DNA from: a virus
Reading direction: 5' to 3' (one strand)
DNA length: 60,170 bases
Virus record (IMG/VR): IMGVR_UViG_3300046538_000299
Coordinates: 1-60,170 of that record
Below are positions 7,389 through 59,720 of this stretch, piece after piece. A model generated the notes under the pieces. That model saw only the letters and a program-made list of their open reading frames with translations. It was not told the DNA's origin and ran no database searches. Every line of letters begins with the position of its first letter. The stretch's first letter is position 1. Made by a program: the position numbers and the translations under genes.

Positions 7389-7506
7389 TCTGGTGGTGAG
7401 CTCAGGCTCAGCTATAGCTTTGTCTCGGGGTTTACTCGCTCAAAGAAAGCTAATACTTCTCTCGTCGGATCGGGAAATTAAAATATGACGATAATCGAGG
7501 TTTCTA

Positions 7507-8214
7507 ATGGTAAGGGATGACGGAAGAGTGACTTCGCCAGTTGTTATGCTCGACGAACCAATAACCGATCCAGAGGCTGCTATATCATATGCTTCTAATG
7601 ATCTCGATGCATGGAAGCGACTTTACGAGCTTTGTATCGATCTCAGAAATTTTGAAATATCTCAGCTAGTGCAGCGAAATAATTTCTTCATGATATTTCA
7701 AGGTGTTCTTTTGGCTGGTGTTTGTCAATCCGCTGGACAGATTCCTATCGTAAGCTTTATGGTCTGCTTGGCTGGTATTGTAGTGTCTTTGTTACAAGCT
7801 GGGATGGCATGTGGCGCAAAATATTGGCAAGTGCACTGGGAAGTAAATACAGTCAACGCGGAAAAATCCATGACGCGTATGATAAAGATTCATGGCAAAA
7901 TAAGAAATAAAATTGCTACGGATGGAGTCTTGATCGATCCCCTGCTTTTATCGCGTTTACAGCATAGGCAGTTTCTAATTCATTTGTTTCAAGATGACTA
8001 CAACACCGAATCTATCAAAGCATCATTGGGGGGCAGTAGGATAAAGAGACGCTTCATCAACGGCCTGATAATGCGTCGATTTTCTTCAAGTAGAATACCA
8101 ATCTATGCTGGAATCTTTCTGTCGCTTATATGGGCAGTCCTTTTGGTCAATACCACTAACCTAAGCTGGGGGGTTAGCATGCCAACCTTCATCTCGGGCT
8201 TCCCTTCAAGATAA
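7507..8214 (+). CDS. RipA-like multi-pass membrane protein, accessory gene
   Basis: 235 residues. After an acidic head comes WKRLYELCIDLRNFEISQLVQRNNFFMIFQGVLLAGV, close to the pattern of RipA-family octameric membrane proteins, then a second membrane segment (FMVCLAGIVVSLLQAGM) and a third near residue 205 (IYAGIFLSLIWAVLLV). AT-rich relative to the flanks, its own start at 7507 with GAGG upstream. Probable moron; role unknown. Confidence 0.68.
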   Translation: MVRDDGRVTSPVVMLDEPITDPEAAISYASNDLDAWKRLYELCIDLRNFEISQLVQRNNFFMIFQGVLLAGVCQSAGQIPIVSFMVCLAGIVVSLLQAGMACGAKYWQVHWEVNTVNAEKSMTRMIKIHGKIRNKIATDGVLIDPLLLSRLQHRQFLIHLFQDDYNTESIKASLGGSRIKRRFINGLIMRRFSSSRIPIYAGIFLSLIWAVLLVNTTNLSWGVSMPTFISGFPSR

Positions 8215-43017: not shown

Positions 43018-43773
43018 ATGCTCAAACACATCCTCAAGGCGGTGCAGACACATGCGACCGCGGAGTATCCGCGCGAATGCTGTGGCGTGCTGATCAGCAT
43101 CGGCCGCAAGCAGAAGTACATCCCATGCCCGAACACCGCAACCGACCCGAACGAAGAGTTCAGGATTGCTGCAGAGGATTACGCCGCGGCTGAAGACGAG
43201 GGCGAGGTGATCGGTATCGTTCACTCGCATCCTGATGCAACCAGCAGACCATCACCGCGCGATCTGGCGATGTGCGAAGCGACTGAACTGCCCTGGCACA
43301 TCCTTAGCTGGCCAGAGGGCGACCTACGTACCATCGTACCCACCGGCAACACGCCGTTGCTCGGTCGACCTTTCGTGCATGGCGCCTGGGACTGCTGGCA
43401 GGTCTGTGCGGACTGGTACAAGCGCGAATGGGGGCTTGAGTTCGAGGCCTTCAAGCGCGATGACGGTTGGTGGGAACAGGCCGACGGGCCGAGCTTGTAT
43501 GAGCAGGCCTACGAGGCCGCCGGCTTCGAGCGCGTCGGCACGCCGCAGCGCGGCGACATGATTGTGATGGACGTAGGGCGGACCAAGCATCCGAATCACG
43601 CCGGAATCTACCTCGACGCCGATCCTTCGCTGCCCGGCGAGTCAGCGGCAGTGCACGGCGCGGGTCCATTCCTGCTGCACCACCTGTATGGCAAACCGTC
43701 AGAGATCACTGTGTTCGGGGGCCCTTGGCACGACAGAACACGCCTGATTCTCAGGCACAGAGACGCGAAATGA
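43018..43773 (+). CDS. Tail assembly protein K (JAMM plus NlpC/P60)
   Basis: 251 residues from ATG 43018. N-terminal JAMM metalloprotease (IVHSHPDATSRPSPRDL, preceded by a Glu in YPRECCGV) and C-terminal NlpC/P60 peptidase (GAWDCWQVCADWYKREWGLEF with Cys, PNHAGIYLD with His). Cuts peptidoglycan or processes tail tip proteins. Confidence 0.94.
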   Translation: MLKHILKAVQTHATAEYPRECCGVLISIGRKQKYIPCPNTATDPNEEFRIAAEDYAAAEDEGEVIGIVHSHPDATSRPSPRDLAMCEATELPWHILSWPEGDLRTIVPTGNTPLLGRPFVHGAWDCWQVCADWYKREWGLEFEAFKRDDGWWEQADGPSLYEQAYEAAGFERVGTPQRGDMIVMDVGRTKHPNHAGIYLDADPSLPGESAAVHGAGPFLLHHLYGKPSEITVFGGPWHDRTRLILRHRDAK

Positions 43774-43823
43774 TGTCGGAGATTCTCCTCTCTTCAGAAT
43801 GCATGTCATGGTGCCCTCGTGCT

Positions 43824-43840
43824 AAATTTCGTTGAAATTT
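43824..43840. promoter_or_regulatory. Perfect 7-3-7 palindrome before HEPN cassette
   Basis: AAATTTC-GTT-GAAATTT, 17 bases before the first cassette gene. AT-rich dyad, no T-run; candidate operator for autoregulation. Confidence 0.5.
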
Positions 43841-43856
43841 CGCCAGGGCCAGCGGG

Positions 43857-44648
43857 ATGCAGCAGCTAAAAACAGAAATCGGAGATCTCTTTAAGCAGCG
43901 TCTTGTATTGAAAGACCAGCTTGCCGCTACTTGCGTAGTGGATGAAGTGTCTACAGAGCGGTTGAAAAGGCGGTTTCGTGGAATTTTGAAGTCGAACGTC
44001 TTGAGCGCGTTGCAGCAGGCTGCCGTATACCATGAATTAGCATGTTTGGTCGCCACTCAAGGACGTTACACTGAAGCGCTTTCATATATAAGATTATCAA
44101 GAGAGCTTGGTTTGGACTCTTTTGCTTTAGCTTTTACTTCCGCTTATTTGGCCTTGTTAAACGGATACGTAATAGATGCTCGGCGTGAGGTGGAAGGGAT
44201 CATGGATACCGTTGTGCCTAGTGCAATTCCGCTACTACGCGCCCACCAAGCGCAAGTAGGCATGCTGGGAGGTTTTATGGCCGATGAATCGCTGAATAGC
44301 GACTTTCAAAACGAAGCTCTCGAAGCAAAAAAAATAATCGCGAAGCTATCCATTGATGACTGGGAGCTAACGTCAAGGCTTGACGCTGCATGTCGAATGA
44401 TTAGGGCAAATATAAATCATCCTATTCTGTCGTATAAACTTTTTGCGCGAGAGGGCGATGGTATTCTGTACCGATTCATGGTCAAGGCTGATGTAGTTAG
44501 AATCGCTGAGCTAAACGAAATGCTGCTTGATATGCTACTGGATACATTTGACGGTGATATCGACAACGAGCTTTCTATCTTAATTACACCTTGGTCCCCT
44601 GTAGACCGCCCGATCTCTGAGGGGGCATATCTTGTCGGTGTCTCCTGA
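43857..44648 (+). CDS. Cassette gene 1: helical (TPR-like) protein beside HEPN gene
   Basis: 263 residues. All-helical; ALQQAAVYHELACLVATQGRYTEALSYIRLSRELGLDSFALAFTSAYLALLNGYVIDARREVEGIMDTV reads as tetratricopeptide-type helix pairs. AT-richer than the tail genes on both sides. It overlaps the HEPN gene by 17 bases. Role unknown; a sensor, scaffold or antidote for the HEPN protein would fit the layout. Confidence 0.7.
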   Translation: MQQLKTEIGDLFKQRLVLKDQLAATCVVDEVSTERLKRRFRGILKSNVLSALQQAAVYHELACLVATQGRYTEALSYIRLSRELGLDSFALAFTSAYLALLNGYVIDARREVEGIMDTVVPSAIPLLRAHQAQVGMLGGFMADESLNSDFQNEALEAKKIIAKLSIDDWELTSRLDAACRMIRANINHPILSYKLFAREGDGILYRFMVKADVVRIAELNEMLLDMLLDTFDGDIDNELSILITPWSPVDRPISEGAYLVGVS

Positions 44649-45024
44649 AGACTTTCTGAGCCTAAGCAAACGATTATGTGAGTCTCAAGATGAAATCGAT
44701 TTGCGATCTTCCATAAGCCGCGCCTACTATGGTGCTTATCATGCGGCATGCGACACGGCAATGCGCCTGCAGCTTCCAGAAGCAAAACGGTACGATGCAG
44801 GTATGCACGAGCGCTTGATCTCGAGGTTTGAATGTAATGGCCCTGGCTTGAGAAAGATTGCTCGAAGGCTCAGGGACCGTAAGCGCCTTAGGGCAATGGC
44901 TGATTATCAACTCGGCGAGCAGGTCACTCGTGAGGAGGCTTCTCTGAACGCTCTGGAATCCGCCCGGCTAGTTCAGGACCTGACAAGGATAGGGTGCGCC
45001 GCAGAAAAACAGACAGACAACTGA
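44632..45024 (+). CDS. Cassette gene 2: HEPN-domain protein
   Basis: 130 residues from TTG 44632 (GAGGGGG seven bases before; GTG 44638 is the alternative). SISRAYYGAYHAACDTAM gives R30-x6-H37, the HEPN catalytic motif of RNA-cleaving members, and RKRLRAMADYQLGEQVTREEA is the usual C-terminal helix with R-x-x-A-D-Y. Such proteins act as toxins in toxin-antitoxin and abortive-infection systems; others are mere binding modules. Confidence 0.76.
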   Translation: MSVSPEDFLSLSKRLCESQDEIDLRSSISRAYYGAYHAACDTAMRLQLPEAKRYDAGMHERLISRFECNGPGLRKIARRLRDRKRLRAMADYQLGEQVTREEASLNALESARLVQDLTRIGCAAEKQTDN

Positions 45025-45063
45025 CTGGCGTTTTGGAAATATTTGATTGGTAGACTGCGCGAT

Positions 45064-45438
45064 ATGAAGCTCGATAAAGAATTAGTACGAGAAGTCCTAC
45101 TGGCGGTCGAGGCGATCGATAAGCCAAGAGGCATGTTCGAGCTTGAAATACCTGGATGGTCCGATCAGGAAATTTCTTACCACGTCATGCTTTTGGAAGA
45201 AGCTGGGTTGCTCTCGGCCATAAGCGTGGGAGGTATGAACAACTTCAAATGGGCAGCGTCGCGATTGACCTACTCAGGTCATGAGTTTCTGGAAACCGTT
45301 AGAGACCCTGAAGTGTGGCGCAGGACAAAGGATGGAGCTGAGAAAGTCGGCGGTATCGGACTAGGCATGCTTGTGGAAGTTGGTAAAGCCTACGGCAAGC
45401 AGATTCTGAAGGAGCGGCTGGGGCTTGATTTGTCCTGA
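45064..45438 (+). CDS. Cassette gene 3: DUF2513 protein
   Basis: 124 residues from ATG 45064. KLDKELVREVLLAVEAIDKPRG, YHVMLLEEAGLLSAISVGG and LTYSGHEFLETVRDPEVWRRTKDGAEKVGGIGLGMLVEVGKAYGKQILKERLGL are the DUF2513 pattern, a winged-helix-like family common on phages and islands. May regulate the cassette. Ends at a terminator. Confidence 0.82.
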   Translation: MKLDKELVREVLLAVEAIDKPRGMFELEIPGWSDQEISYHVMLLEEAGLLSAISVGGMNNFKWAASRLTYSGHEFLETVRDPEVWRRTKDGAEKVGGIGLGMLVEVGKAYGKQILKERLGLDLS

Positions 45439-45459
45439 AACCCTCACTGCTTGGAAGGT

Positions 45460-45484
45460 GCCCAGCCATGCGCTGGGGCTTTTT
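45460..45484 (+). terminator. Terminator after HEPN cassette
   Basis: GCCCAGC, 5-base loop, GCTGGGGC with one bulge, then TTTTT. Confidence 0.75.
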
Positions 45485-45536
45485 GCATCTCGCACTCCCA
45501 GTGCTACCCTCGGCCCTTTCTCAATGAGGGATCATC

Positions 45537-45884
45537 ATGCGGATGTTGGTAGGGGCTCTGGGTGTAATTTTAATGGCGGGATGTGCGAAGTCCGTTACGG
45601 AAATGCGTGAATCCGGTCCTGAGGCAAGGTTGTATTCAAGTAAGTCCGTGGACGATGTATCCAAATGTATTGTTTTTGCGTGGCAAGGATTTACATCCTA
45701 CGGCGACCACCTTGAAATATTCATGCTGCCGAGTCGGGGCGGAGGCTCCACCGTATTGACCCGCCAGAACCAGTTCGTGGTTGATGTCGAGCCAGCTGAA
45801 GGGCGGACGCAAGTACTCTTTTTTCAGAGCGGCGATGGCAACATGAGTCGAACTCTGCTCGGAGATGTTAAGTCATGTCTTTAA
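45537..45884 (+). CDS. Lipoprotein, tail-region accessory gene 1
   Basis: 115 residues. Signal with lipobox (MLVGALGVILMAGC), so exported and acylated. Leader (GAGGGATCATC before ATG) is nearly the same as that of 45925. The mature part is different from the next two lipoproteins. Superinfection exclusion by masking a receptor is a typical role for such genes, not shown here. Confidence 0.75.
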   Translation: MRMLVGALGVILMAGCAKSVTEMRESGPEARLYSSKSVDDVSKCIVFAWQGFTSYGDHLEIFMLPSRGGGSTVLTRQNQFVVDVEPAEGRTQVLFFQSGDGNMSRTLLGDVKSCL

Positions 45885-45924
45885 ACGGCAGCAGAGACTC
45901 TGTCTTTCAATGTGAGGGATCATC

Positions 45925-46326
45925 ATGCGAATTTTGGTAGGGGCGTTGGCAGTTTCGCTGCTGGCTGGCTGTGCCACATCCCCGATTTCTGCGGACAAAG
46001 CCGATCCGGTGCCGCAATCGAGGCTGTACGCTTTCGGCAACAAGGCTGACGCCCAGGTTGTCGTGACTCGAGATAGCGGTCTCTATGGATCAGGCTGCAA
46101 CTATCGACTCTACATAGACGGTACTCTCGCGGCTGAATTTGCGTCTGGGGAAGTCGCGAAGTTCGGGGTGAAGGCCGGCAAGCATATTCTCGGAGTGAAG
46201 CCGAGCGCCGCCTGTGGCGGCTTTGGTCTGGTTGAGCGCGAGGTAGAGGTCGGTGCCGGTGAGTCAGTGCGGCGCAGGATCACTCTTTCCGGAGATGCGT
46301 TTGACATATCTCCGACAGCTATGTGA
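45925..46326 (+). CDS. Lipoprotein, tail-region accessory gene 2 (paralog of 47049)
   Basis: 133 residues. Lipobox LAVSLLAGC; mature part with VVVTRDSGLYGSGCNYRLYIDGTLAAEFASGEVAKFGVKAGKHILGVKP, a small beta-sandwich-like domain. Shares the block VTRDSG.YGS, GEVAKFG and GKH.LG with the gene at 47049. Ends at a UUCG terminator. Confidence 0.8.
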   Translation: MRILVGALAVSLLAGCATSPISADKADPVPQSRLYAFGNKADAQVVVTRDSGLYGSGCNYRLYIDGTLAAEFASGEVAKFGVKAGKHILGVKPSAACGGFGLVEREVEVGAGESVRRRITLSGDAFDISPTAM

Positions 46327-46341
46327 CCAATCATCAAAATC

Positions 46342-46362
46342 ACCCGCTTCGGCGGGTTTTTT
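46342..46362 (+). terminator. UUCG-loop terminator before I
   Basis: ACCCGC-TTCG-GCGGGT and six Ts; same stem and loop as at 47461. Confidence 0.9.
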
Positions 46363-46377
46363 ATGTCCGGAGTAAAA

Positions 46378-46986
46378 ATGGCAGCTACAGCGGCTCACTA
46401 CAGTCCTATGACTACAATCTTGTTATCTGGCTCGCTTGCGAGAAAGTTTGGCAGGACCCATAAACGCCAAATTGACAGCGGCCAGGGGCTGGAGGTTTTC
46501 CGGGCGCTGAAGGCAACCCTTCAAGGGTTTGCCGAAGAGATTCAGCGGTTGGACCGTATTGGCATGAGATTCGCCATCTTCCGCAACAGAAAAAATGTCG
46601 GTGAAAAGGATCTCGAGCTTGGCGGCACACGCGAAATTCGGATTGTTCCTGTGATCAGCGGAAGCAAACGAGCCGGGGTCTTGCAAACGATCTTGGGCGT
46701 TGCGCTGATTGTCATCGGTTTTTTTGCGTACGGCTCTACGACCGCACAAGGCGCAGCACTTATAGCTGGGGGCGTCGCATCTACAGCGGGCGGCGTTATC
46801 CAAATGCTCAGCCCTCAGGCGTCTGGGATCCGACAGAGTGCGTCGCCAGAAAACCTACCGTCCTATGCCTTCGGCTCAGCCAAGAACACCACAGCCAGCG
46901 GCAACCCGGTCCCGATCTGCATCGGACGCCGCCGCTGGGGTGGCGCGATTATCAGCGCGAGCATCTATGCGGAGGACAAGACGTAA
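46378..46986 (+). CDS. Tail assembly protein I
   Basis: 202 residues from ATG 46378 (GGAG at 5-base spacing). SGSLARKFGRTHKRQIDSGQGLEVFRALKATLQGF and a C-terminal Gly-rich membrane-like hairpin (LQTILGVALIVIGFFAYG..GAALIAGGVASTAGGVIQMLSP) match lambda I. Works with K and J on tip assembly. Confidence 0.92.
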   Translation: MAATAAHYSPMTTILLSGSLARKFGRTHKRQIDSGQGLEVFRALKATLQGFAEEIQRLDRIGMRFAIFRNRKNVGEKDLELGGTREIRIVPVISGSKRAGVLQTILGVALIVIGFFAYGSTTAQGAALIAGGVASTAGGVIQMLSPQASGIRQSASPENLPSYAFGSAKNTTASGNPVPICIGRRRWGGAIISASIYAEDKT

Positions 46987-47048: not shown

Positions 47049-47450
47049 ATGAGAACAATTGTTTGCGTTTTTTCACTTTTCTGTATCGCTGGTTGCTCGA
47101 CAACACCTATATCCGTGAGTGACGCTAGCCCAGTACCATCTTCACGCCTGTATGGACTTACTGAGAAAAATGAGTCTCAGCTTGTAGTCACAAGGGACAG
47201 TGGCACTTACGGTTCGGCGGTACGATTTACGCTCGCCGTGGACGGCAAAATCGTTGCCGAGCTTCATCCCGGGGAGGTGGCAAAATTTGGAATATCCTCC
47301 GGGAAGCATGTTTTAGGTTTGGGGGCCAGAGCACTGTATGGCACGCCTGATGTCCTCGAATACGAAATTGATGTGAAGCCTGGTGAAACTGTCCGCCGCA
47401 GAATCTCCGTTATAAGCGGTGATCGACGACTTTCCCCTACGGCTTACTGA
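47049..47450 (+). CDS. Lipoprotein, tail-region accessory gene 3 (paralog of 45925)
   Basis: 133 residues. Lipobox (VFSLFCIAGC). LVVTRDSGTYGSAVRFTLAVDGKIVAELHPGEVAKFGISSGKHVLGLG aligns along its length with the 45925 protein (about half the residues identical in the core). Lies between I and J with its own leader and terminator. Confidence 0.8.
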   Translation: MRTIVCVFSLFCIAGCSTTPISVSDASPVPSSRLYGLTEKNESQLVVTRDSGTYGSAVRFTLAVDGKIVAELHPGEVAKFGISSGKHVLGLGARALYGTPDVLEYEIDVKPGETVRRRISVISGDRRLSPTAY

Positions 47451-55680: not shown

Positions 55681-56189
55681 CCGAAGCCCAGATCAAGTTG
55701 ATCGTCGCCGCCGTGGTCGCCGTCGCGTTGTTCCTCGCCGGCGGGGCGGTTGCGTGGTTATGGCAGGCCAACGCCTACGGCAAGGTCATCGCTACCAATG
55801 AAGCGAACCGCCAGGCCGATATGGCGCTGATCGCTAACGCCGGGGCGGATCAGGCGCGCAAGGCGCTTGCCAAACAGCATGACGCCGAGCAGAAGCTCGC
55901 CGCACTCGACAAAGACGCCACTGAACAGAAGGAAAAGGCCAATGCCGAAAACGAAACTCTGCGCCGTGCTGTTGCTGACGGCACTCGCCGGCTGCGCATC
56001 GCGGGAAGTTGTAGTGCCGGTAGCGGGAACGTGTCCGGTACCGCCAGCGCCCCCAGCGTGGGTGATGCAGGCTCCGTCGAACTCACTGCAGCAGCTGGAC
56101 GATCTGTTCTTGATCTCAGATCCAGCATCATCGCCGACCAAGCAGCCCTAAAAGCGCTACAGTCATACGTTGTGAGCGTGTGTCGCTAA
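55677..56189 (+). CDS. Rz-like inner membrane spanin
   Basis: 170 residues, ATGA overlap with endolysin. One membrane segment (LIVAAVVAVALFLAGGAVAWLWQ) then a periplasmic coiled coil (KQHDAEQKLAALDKDATEQKEKANAENETLRRAVADGTRRLRI). The last third is Gly/Ser/Ala-rich. Works with the nested Rz1 to break the outer membrane. Confidence 0.9.
   Translation: MTEAQIKLIVAAVVAVALFLAGGAVAWLWQANAYGKVIATNEANRQADMALIANAGADQARKALAKQHDAEQKLAALDKDATEQKEKANAENETLRRAVADGTRRLRIAGSCSAGSGNVSGTASAPSVGDAGSVELTAAAGRSVLDLRSSIIADQAALKALQSYVVSVCR
55942..56151 (+). CDS. Rz1-like outer membrane spanin lipoprotein (nested)
   Basis: 69 residues in another frame wholly inside Rz; GAAGGAAAAGG before ATG 55942. Lipobox LLLTALAGC and proline-rich mature part (CPVPPAPPAW), as in lambda Rz1. 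Confidence 0.87.
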   Translation: MPKTKLCAVLLLTALAGCASREVVVPVAGTCPVPPAPPAWVMQAPSNSLQQLDDLFLISDPASSPTKQP

Positions 56190-56253
56190 TGACTTGGTCG
56201 CTTGAATCTAGAAACTTTTAGTCTGAGATTAATTGACGCTGACGGTACAGCTA

Positions 56254-56862
56254 ATGATCAGTATCAGAGGTCGAAAAAAAGGTGAATTTTTTGGGAAACT
56301 TGTGATGCTGCTTGCAGGGGCTGTGATTGGAGTTTCTTCCAGCTTGGTAACTGTTGTGGTTCAACAAAAATATCAGTATGACCAGTTTATCTTGGATAAA
56401 AAAATTCAAGCGCTCCGCGATTTTACAATGGAATTCAACAAAAACACTGTTCGTTGGTCAATGACTCTTGATTCTCTCGAGAATAATTACTTGTATCTTG
56501 AAGGTATTACATCGGATGGCGAACTCCCTATAGCCTCCGACTTTGATGGGCTTAATAAGGATTATTCAGAATTTAAAAGCATACAGCAGGATATGGGGGG
56601 TCTACTAGGTCAGAAAATACTGCTATATGCTCTTTTCGATACCAAAGCGCCTGATGTTTCTATGGGAGCTCCCAGCATGATTGACGAGGCTTTGAATGAT
56701 AAGATGATTAAAGAAACGAATCCAAAAATTCAAGCTGCTATGTTTGCAAAGGCCTATCATGAGCTAAGAGACTTAGTTACGAAGCAAAAGCTGGTTTTGG
56801 TGTCTATAACCAATGCCACTAATGATGACTTGACTAAACTCGCCAAGTCGATACAGCGATGA
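56254..56862 (+). CDS. Single-pass membrane protein, accessory gene
   Basis: 202 residues from ATG 56254. One membrane segment (LVMLLAGAVIGVSSSLVTVVV) then a helical domain of about 160 residues. AT-rich against its flanks, a mark of recent gain. No family recognised. Confidence 0.7.
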   Translation: MISIRGRKKGEFFGKLVMLLAGAVIGVSSSLVTVVVQQKYQYDQFILDKKIQALRDFTMEFNKNTVRWSMTLDSLENNYLYLEGITSDGELPIASDFDGLNKDYSEFKSIQQDMGGLLGQKILLYALFDTKAPDVSMGAPSMIDEALNDKMIKETNPKIQAAMFAKAYHELRDLVTKQKLVLVSITNATNDDLTKLAKSIQR

Positions 56863-56869
56863 GCTCCAT

Positions 56870-57314
56870 TCATAGTTCCTTACCGCGGCTTGGCGCTATG
56901 AGATGAGCACCCTGATTCCTCACATTCCCCACGTCCTTGCTCACCCTGAACCAGGTGAATTCCTCCGTCGGCCTGCAGCACTCCTTGGCGATTTCAGCAG
57001 CGCGCTCCGGCGTGGTCTCCGGATCGACCCATTCCTGGGCGTGCTTCGAACTCAGCACCACTGGGCGCCGATCGTGAATGTCCACCATCCCCTGATCTGA
57101 ATCGGCGGTGATGATCACAAAACCGTCCTGTGGATCCTGCTCCAACCCCTGATGCACTTCAGCCAGCGCGGCGAAAAATCTCAACGCGCGTGCTGGGCGC
57201 AACGTTGTAGCGCTCGATAGGCCAGAGGTCACAGCCGTTGATGATCAACTGCTGGGGCGCCAGTTCCTTGAGGTAATGGTCCATCGGTTCGTAGATCGAG
57301 TAGCGTCCGCACAT
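56870..57314 (-). pseudogene. SRAP/YedK (HMCES) gene, broken by internal frame-breaking deletion
   Basis: N-terminal part 57314-57165 reads MCGRYSIYEP...NVAPSTRVEIF with catalytic Cys2; it then stops. Directly after, in another frame, comes the C-terminal part FFAALAEVHQGLE..DGFVIITADSDQGMVDIHDRRPVVL to 56870. About 80-100 central residues, with the Glu of the active site, are gone. SRAP proteins bind abasic single-stranded DNA in SOS conditions; this copy cannot be whole. Confidence 0.85.
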
Positions 57315-58482: not shown

Positions 58483-58530
58483 TGGTGCCGGCACCAGGAG
58501 TCGAACCCGGGAGCTACGGATTACAAGTCA
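58483..58530 (-). pseudogene. tRNA-Thr(UGU)-like 3' half
   Basis: Minus strand holds CCA end, acceptor strand, T arm (GGGTTCGACTC) and anticodon loop CTTGTAA, but the D arm and 5' acceptor strand are missing or reduced. A hairpin lies just 3' of it (58451-58473). Not a working tRNA; may be an old attachment core. Confidence 0.65.
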
Positions 58531-58651
58531 GATAGGGTGAGCCACCGTTTGATATGATCCAACCATCATTGGGAGCGGGTCCAACTGTTAACGTGCTGAA
58601 ACTCTTCAAGCTGCTAGCCTTACCGCAAATACACACGGCTGAGGCTTAGTC

Positions 58652-59479
58652 ATGACGAACTTCATTCAGACCGCCGTAACGGTTGGTGGCATAGGCGGCT
58701 TAGGGTTTGCGATATTCTATTTATTATGTCGTGACATAATCCGCAAAAAAATCTTCCCGCGTTTTACGAAAGAACAAGCATACAATGTCATAAGGCTAAT
58801 CATTATTTTGGCATTCCTTGTTACGATCTCGGGATTATTAGCATGGATATATAAAGCCCCTGGCCTTCCAGTCGCATTGGTTCCAAAAATAGGGTGGGTT
58901 TCACAGGTCAAGGCGGGCTCAAATTCTGGTCGCTGGTTGATGGAAGTAAAAGATGGGCCAGTTAATAATCTGAGTGTTGAGTCGGTGGAATACGTGGCCC
59001 CTTATGGATCGGCATCACTGATCCTGCAAACCGCTAGCCCCTTGAGAGCAGTTTCACAAAGCGATGACACATCTTATTATATTGATTTTACCCACGTGGA
59101 TGATGATCTTATAGCTATCGCGCACTTGCTCGAGAATAAGAAGGTCCACGATATTTACAATTGGATGTATTATTTTCATGTTAAGGCAACCTACGATAGT
59201 GAAGTAGGTACGAAGTTTGAGAAGGTGTGGGACTTTTCATTCAGGGTTAAAGATCTCAAGACAAATCCCTCAGCTACATCTCGTCCGTTAAGCTCGACCA
59301 CATCGGACTATGAGTACGAGAGAACTCGTTTTGCAAAAATTGAAGAGTGTGGAAGGACATTCGCAGGGCCGGGATTAGTCGCAGCTATGGCATTTGTACC
59401 GATTCCAGGGGCTGAGGGCAAGGTTAAAGGTCCTGATTGGGACGCAGTACTAGCGGACGATAGTTGCTTATCGCTTTAG
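58652..59479 (+). CDS. Two-pass membrane protein, accessory gene near attachment end
   Basis: 275 residues. Membrane segments near 8-26 (VGGIGGLGFAIFYLLC) and 46-66 (LIIILAFLVTISGLLAWIY), then a soluble beta-rich domain. AT-rich; alone between two tRNA fragments. Same general plan as the 5392 and 32371 proteins. The gap 58316-58651 has no gene; 59480-59720 shows none either. Confidence 0.7.
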   Translation: MTNFIQTAVTVGGIGGLGFAIFYLLCRDIIRKKIFPRFTKEQAYNVIRLIIILAFLVTISGLLAWIYKAPGLPVALVPKIGWVSQVKAGSNSGRWLMEVKDGPVNNLSVESVEYVAPYGSASLILQTASPLRAVSQSDDTSYYIDFTHVDDDLIAIAHLLENKKVHDIYNWMYYFHVKATYDSEVGTKFEKVWDFSFRVKDLKTNPSATSRPLSSTTSDYEYERTRFAKIEECGRTFAGPGLVAAMAFVPIPGAEGKVKGPDWDAVLADDSCLSL

Positions 59480-59720
59480 GCGTAGGCCCCCTCATCACGC
59501 AGGGGCTCGGACTACAGCGTAAATTCAAACTGCCGACTGGGCGCGTTCCTTAACGCCGTACCCATCATCCCGTAGCAATATCGTGACGCTGCAGTGCGCA
59601 AAACCTCCTCTGGAAGCCGCGTGTTTCCATTTGCAAAATCACAAAAACGGCCGTATTTTGCAGGTCGGATTGAGGGCGGTTTTCTTTATATTTCAAATGG
59701 TTAGATTGATAAAGGCCCCA

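Follow-up and report, generated by a model that had tools for sequence, protein, structure and literature searches.

What is a short run of AT-rich genes doing in the midst of the tail genes of a prophage? The window analysed here, the whole 60,170-base virus record IMGVR_UViG_3300046538_000299, is a Pseudomonas-type, lambda-like prophage; the original prediction, made from its sequence, was that genes for a TPR-like, a HEPN and a DUF2513 protein form a three-gene cassette between tail genes K and I, set between a palindrome and a terminator, which may protect the lysogen from other phages. Which of these genes belong together, what do their products resemble, and what role suits them best?

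Layout of the cassette and its flanks

The cassette does lie between the two tail genes (Table 1): three + strand ORFs, gene 1, HEPN and DUF2513, follow K in that order, with two small lipoprotein genes between them and I. Its AT-richness is likewise confirmed, GC content being 46% in gene 1, 52% in HEPN and 51% in DUF2513, whereas the window as a whole has 57% and K 62%, and genes 1 and 2 overlap by the 17 bases noted at the outset. Other AT-rich stretches of the window (7501-8000, 56001-57000 and 58501-59500; 41-46% GC) may hold more cargo genes. Three small lipoprotein-like genes stand beside I (45537-45884, 45925-46326 and 47049-47450), and may encode superinfection-exclusion lipoproteins.

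Table 1. Features of the K-I region, in window coordinates
Feature	Position	Strand	Description
K	43018-43773		tail gene
Candidate extended -10 promoter element, TGnTAnnnT	43820-43828	+	37 nt before gene 1; pattern match only
Perfect inverted repeat AAATTTC-GTT-GAAATTT (7-3-7)	43824-43840	.	from sequence; significance doubtful
Gene 1	43857-44648	+	263 aa; TPR-like N-terminal part (~1-184) and C-terminal ββαβ domain (~193-245); proposed regulator/antitoxin and sensor
Gene 1/HEPN frame overlap	44632-44648	+	17 nt; from sequence
Gene 2 (HEPN)	44632-45024	+	130 aa, TTG start; AF0298 (2hsb)-like, HEPN-T type; proposed RNase effector
DUF2513 gene	45064-45438	+	start probably ATG 45064, alternative TTG 45043; PF10711, E 2.5e-28
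Intrinsic-terminator-like hairpin with T run	45461-45484 (hairpin 45461-45477)	+	from sequence
I	46363-46986		tail gene

The third gene does encode a DUF2513 protein, to judge by its strong Pfam match, but it is not part of the unit. It is missing beside genes 1 and 2 in five loci (L002, L003, L009, L089 and L100), the first two of which are close relatives that carry both genes in the same K-I slot (protein identity 69-73%), and it occupies that slot without the pair in two others (L228 and L250). The slots of L002 and L003 without it, together with those of L228 and L250 that carry it alone, lead us to reject the three-gene unit: the unit has two genes, and DUF2513 is an independent passenger. 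A literature search on DUF2513, confined to open-licence papers, returned none.

Among the flanking signals, the extended -10-like element of the window recurs at a similar distance from gene 1 (33-37 nt) in L003, L089, L094 and L100, and is also visible upstream in L002 and L009; the same pattern is found upstream in 12 of 88 relatives, compared with 1 of 88 further upstream and 2 of 88 inside the gene. This suggests that the cassette may have its own promoter. The predicted palindrome is present, but the window holds seven hairpins of this kind, and L002 and L003 preserve it only in part. Family-wide, upstream inverted repeats are only modestly commoner than expected (12 of 92, against 6.3 in mononucleotide shuffles), an enrichment not strong enough for a conserved operator palindrome, which we rejected. 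The terminator hairpin is also there, but terminator-like sites as a class are no commoner than in shuffled sequence (2 found, 1.7 expected).

Pairing of gene 1 with HEPN, and where the pair is found

Scanning with a HEPN profile gave 176 confirmed matches in genome contigs and 111 matches in viral contigs, 80 of each being kept. HEPN genes immediately preceded by an ORF number 169; for 147 of them that ORF is a gene-1 homologue, at a distance of 30 nt or less in 140 of these pairs. The two frames overlap in 98 of the 147, most commonly by 4 or 17 nt, the latter arrangement being found in L003 and others besides the window; such overlap suggests translational coupling of gene 1 and HEPN. These scans were seeded by the pattern SR.YY..[YF]H, whose conservation in them is thus by construction and can be tested only in a set collected through gene 1, and we therefore reversed the search, running a gene-1 profile against 399 genomes of the genus Pseudomonas, 399 of the same order as a Cupriavidus genome and 369 of the same class as a Pseudomonas genome, some 1,170 in total. 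HEPN is the next gene after 27 of the 28 true gene-1 homologues, L195 being the sole exception; a further match, L191, was rejected as a TPR-only false match. Genes 1 and 2 are a conserved two-gene unit. Pairing conserved in relatives, on which the original prediction had been made to depend, is what both searches found.

The pair recurs in diverse phages and in bacteria of several phyla, though sparsely (6 of 399 Pseudomonas genomes). Its settings differ: in Pseudomonas phage YMC11/02/R656 it lies outside the tail block, downstream of the early region; in Pseudomonas phage PG1, which carries a tail sheath gene and an annotated transposase, it lies between tape measure and DNA-circularisation genes; and in L005 it is found beside repressor-like genes, again outside the tail block. 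In bacterial genomes some neighbours are integrases, repressors or portal genes and others are housekeeping genes, a mixture that does not point to phage exclusion in every case. At five loci (L108, L042, L087, L016 and L150) the partner gene or the whole pair is duplicated close by.

The HEPN protein and its partner

The AF2 model of the gene 2 product (pLDDT 94) has helices at residues 5-16, 21-45, 58-67, 71-92 and 100-129, which make up an all-helical HEPN fold of four main helices and an insert helix. In a fold search each of the top 24 PDB matches is a HEPN protein or a HEPN-like entry from structural genomics, with AF0298 (2hsb) best and 2q00, HepT (7bxo) and SO_3166 (5yep) among them, at weak E-values but probabilities of 0.97-1.00; a profile search of the PDB returned 9xbd, 9xbc and, third, 2hsb. 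The HEPN assignment, which was to stand or fall with the predicted structure, is thereby borne out.

Its motif needs rereading. The R-x6-H described as intact, R30-x6-H37, is indeed present, but as a helix-2 feature distinct from the canonical Rx4-6H, which belongs at the end of helix 3; there the window protein has R87-x3-D91-Y92, with R87 kept and D91 in place of the motif histidine. This departure does not exclude HEPN membership, since loss of the motif histidine is documented for some HEPN-T families, in which a substitute is supplied from the insert between helices 2 and 3 (PMC3710099). H59, at the start of the insert helix, is placed accordingly, and with the motif histidine missing, the predicted catalysis would rest on the alternative site proposed from structure (PMC3710099). 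Conservation points the same way. Nine residues (R25, R30, Y32, Y33, H37, H59, R87, D91 and Y92) are invariant in 86 HEPN homologues, but as these come from the seeded scans, the unbiased measure is the gene-1-led set of 27: here H59, R87 and R25 are kept in 27 of 27, H37 in 26 of 27, R30 in 25 of 27 and D91 in 24 of 26. The invariance of H59 and R87 in the unbiased set ranks them first as functional candidates and R30/H37 second; the helix-2 position of the latter and their losses led us to reject them as a canonical catalytic motif. The candidate active site would thus comprise H59 and R87, with D91/Y92, E21, R30 and H37 around them. By sequence and model we class the protein as an AF0298-type HEPN-T: the motif histidine is absent, H59 comes from the helix 2-3 insert, and R87 is kept throughout both sets. 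The Pfam family of AF0298, PF05168, gives no match to the window protein at E≤1 and matches 26 of the 86 relatives, at best with 7.5e-10.

Gene 1 is modelled (AF2, pLDDT 92) as helices up to residue 184 followed by a β-β-α-β domain. Both profile and fold relate the helical part to TPR proteins, as predicted, though in Pfam it meets generic TPR models only. No PDB match lay below E 0.001, and no PADLOC model gave a relevant one; in BFVD the complete fold recurs in two phage proteins (TM 0.72 and 0.65) at 12-15% identity. Low-scoring fold matches to ZnT and DUF59 were set aside. We also considered whether gene 1 might be a degenerate minimal nucleotidyltransferase (MNT), and rejected the idea, regex and family scans giving nothing consistent: by regex the MNT signature is found in only 6 of 95 gene-1 homologues, at scattered places, no nucleotidyltransferase signature being conserved; window gene 1 has no nucleotidyltransferase match in Pfam or PADLOC; and one relative of the 95 has a weak TUTase match.

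Which part of gene 1 meets HEPN? Some HEPN genes, mostly planctomycete, are preceded by short partners of about 105 aa (L061, L080, L081, L044, L054 and others). Over their full length, short upstream partners of this kind (92-156 aa) correspond to the gene-1 C-terminal domain alone (hhalign P 3.6e-4, probability 37%; P 0.05 with the N-terminal part), which suggests that this domain is the core HEPN partner. Co-evolution does not tell which domain binds, the correlation of pairwise identities with HEPN being equal for the TPR part (0.31) and the C-terminal part (0.29), and better conservation of the C-terminal domain relative to the TPR array is clear only where pairs are moderately related. 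Contact through the C-terminal domain is weakly supported.

The K-I slot, known systems and the role of the pair

The K-I slot is a hypervariable cargo hotspot of Pseudomonas lambda-like prophages. Of the 78 slots measured (from loci L197-L276, and 43774-46362 of the window), two contain nothing; the contents of the others differ and span 0.35-4.2 kb, in many cases with one small lipoprotein gene adjoining I. Clustering of the cargo proteins of at least 90 aa gives about 70 groups, some of them antisense or chance ORFs; those that can be named include AbiU2 HEPN, YafO toxin, P22-type antirepressor domains, DUF2971 and a trypsin-like protein, and the PADLOC candidate families PDC-S45, S31, M03B and M35A are also represented. 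The company of other toxin- and Abi-type genes supports the view of gene 1 and HEPN as cargo. Most relatives of the window phage have the slot without the pair, which is therefore dispensable for phage growth. Two loci (L100 and L173) carry strongly diverged TPR-HEPN pairs (29-40% identity) in this same slot, from which it seems that the slot has received such pairs more than once, by repeated gain or by replacement. The slot recalls the prophage and satellite defence hotspots of P2/P4 (PMC9122126), where a constant site flanked by conserved phage genes likewise has a changing cargo, in part defensive; the phages and the slot are different, and a defence role of the K-I cargo is putative.

The pair itself is an unnamed, MNT-less HEPN module of the toxin/Abi kind. 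PADLOC-DB has no model for it, in keeping with the original prediction, which knew of no named defence system of this order, and the open-licence literature on HEPN with TPR partners yielded no description. The nearest two-gene relatives are the HEPN/MNT systems (HepT-MntA, SO_3166-SO_3165; type VII toxin-antitoxin; PADLOC candidate PDC-M05), in which a small HEPN gene likewise adjoins the gene for its partner; the HepT and SO_3166 structures match the window HEPN fold, and PDC-M05B models give weak matches among the 86 HEPN relatives, up to 9 members per model. They fail on the partner, however, theirs being a minimal nucleotidyltransferase, which neutralises HEPN toxicity by AMPylation, and this one a TPR and ββαβ protein without MNT motif, and the histidine of their Rx4H is D91 here. 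AF0298, the best fold match, shares the loss of the motif histidine and its substitute (PMC3710099), whereas the window HEPN falls below PF05168 and has a conserved TPR/ββαβ partner gene. LA2681 HEPN with TPR and AbiU2 HEPN with a Sel1-repeat partner are also operons of HEPN and a repeat-scaffold protein (Anantharaman 2013), but no C-terminal ββαβ domain like that in gene 1 is described for them; membership of either was rejected, as their Pfam models find no match among the 86 HEPN homologues (E≤0.01 for LA2681). Tha of Staphylococcus aureus prophages is a HEPN RNase that protects the lysogen and is triggered by tail proteins (PMC11087260), a precedent that makes an anti-phage role possible for a prophage HEPN, though in a different system: Tha is a single 301-aa protein with a canonical R-x4-H and an antisense inhibitor gene (PMC11087260), whereas here there are two co-directional genes, an alternative site and no R-x4-H.

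We propose, with a probability of about 0.6, that genes 1 and 2 form a HEPN effector-regulator module, an RNase held in check by its partner and carried as prophage cargo, probably for phage exclusion. HEPN would be a metal-independent RNase with the alternative HEPN-T active site, H59 acting with R87; the gene-1 protein, produced along with it, would restrain it, with the ββαβ domain as the putative contact, while the TPR array might sense a signal such as a protein of an incoming phage. On this signal HEPN would be released and cut RNA, cell or phage would be stopped, and the lysogen would exclude competitors. The module moves with prophages as their cargo, and in the window occupies the K-I slot. 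RNase activity, inhibition, sensing and the anti-phage role are what we infer from these data; a toxin-like switch directed at competing phages is the probable role of the pair, and protection of the lysogen is plausible from the context.

A plain addiction module, in which a labile antitoxin (gene 1) and a HEPN toxin stabilise the prophage or host lineage without sensing phages, would account for the antitoxin-first order, the overlapping frames and the small HEPN, all reminiscent of type VII HEPN/MNT toxin-antitoxins (PMC11586414, PMC7641770), as well as for chromosomal relatives adjoining housekeeping genes. We think it unlikely: an antitoxin would not require so large a TPR domain, the hotspot in which the pair recurs carries cargo of many kinds, and the sparseness of the pair in Pseudomonas speaks of gain and loss rather than entrenchment. 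Still less probable is a developmental regulator, in which HEPN, made from the tail-gene transcript, would target RNA of phage or host during late lytic growth, without exclusion. The genes are co-directional within the late tail block and the PG1 pair also keeps such company, but the K-I slot mostly lacks the pair, a promoter-like element of its own precedes gene 1, and in L005 and R656 the pair is outside the tail block. Lowest of all we place a three-gene defence system that also needs DUF2513; that gene lies only 39 nt downstream of HEPN in the window, ahead of the terminator-like hairpin, and in L114 a DUF2513-like ORF (28% identity) directly follows HEPN, yet the loci in which pair and DUF2513 occur apart tell against it.

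The effector-regulator reading may extend further, to a widespread and distinct class of HEPN two-gene systems in proteobacteria, planctomycetes and several unrelated phages, in which a ββαβ "HEPN-partner" domain replaces the nucleotidyltransferase antitoxin. Planctomycetes would have this domain in minimal form, proteobacteria and phages joined to a TPR sensor, and the class would share the H59/R87 site and a role in phage exclusion; for this tentative generalization we put the odds a little below even. If the partner does restrain HEPN without a nucleotidyltransferase, it would represent another way of controlling HEPN RNases, and defence finders would gain a two-gene signature that they now lack. 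The K-I slot, for its part, is a ready place in which to search for further anti-phage cargo.
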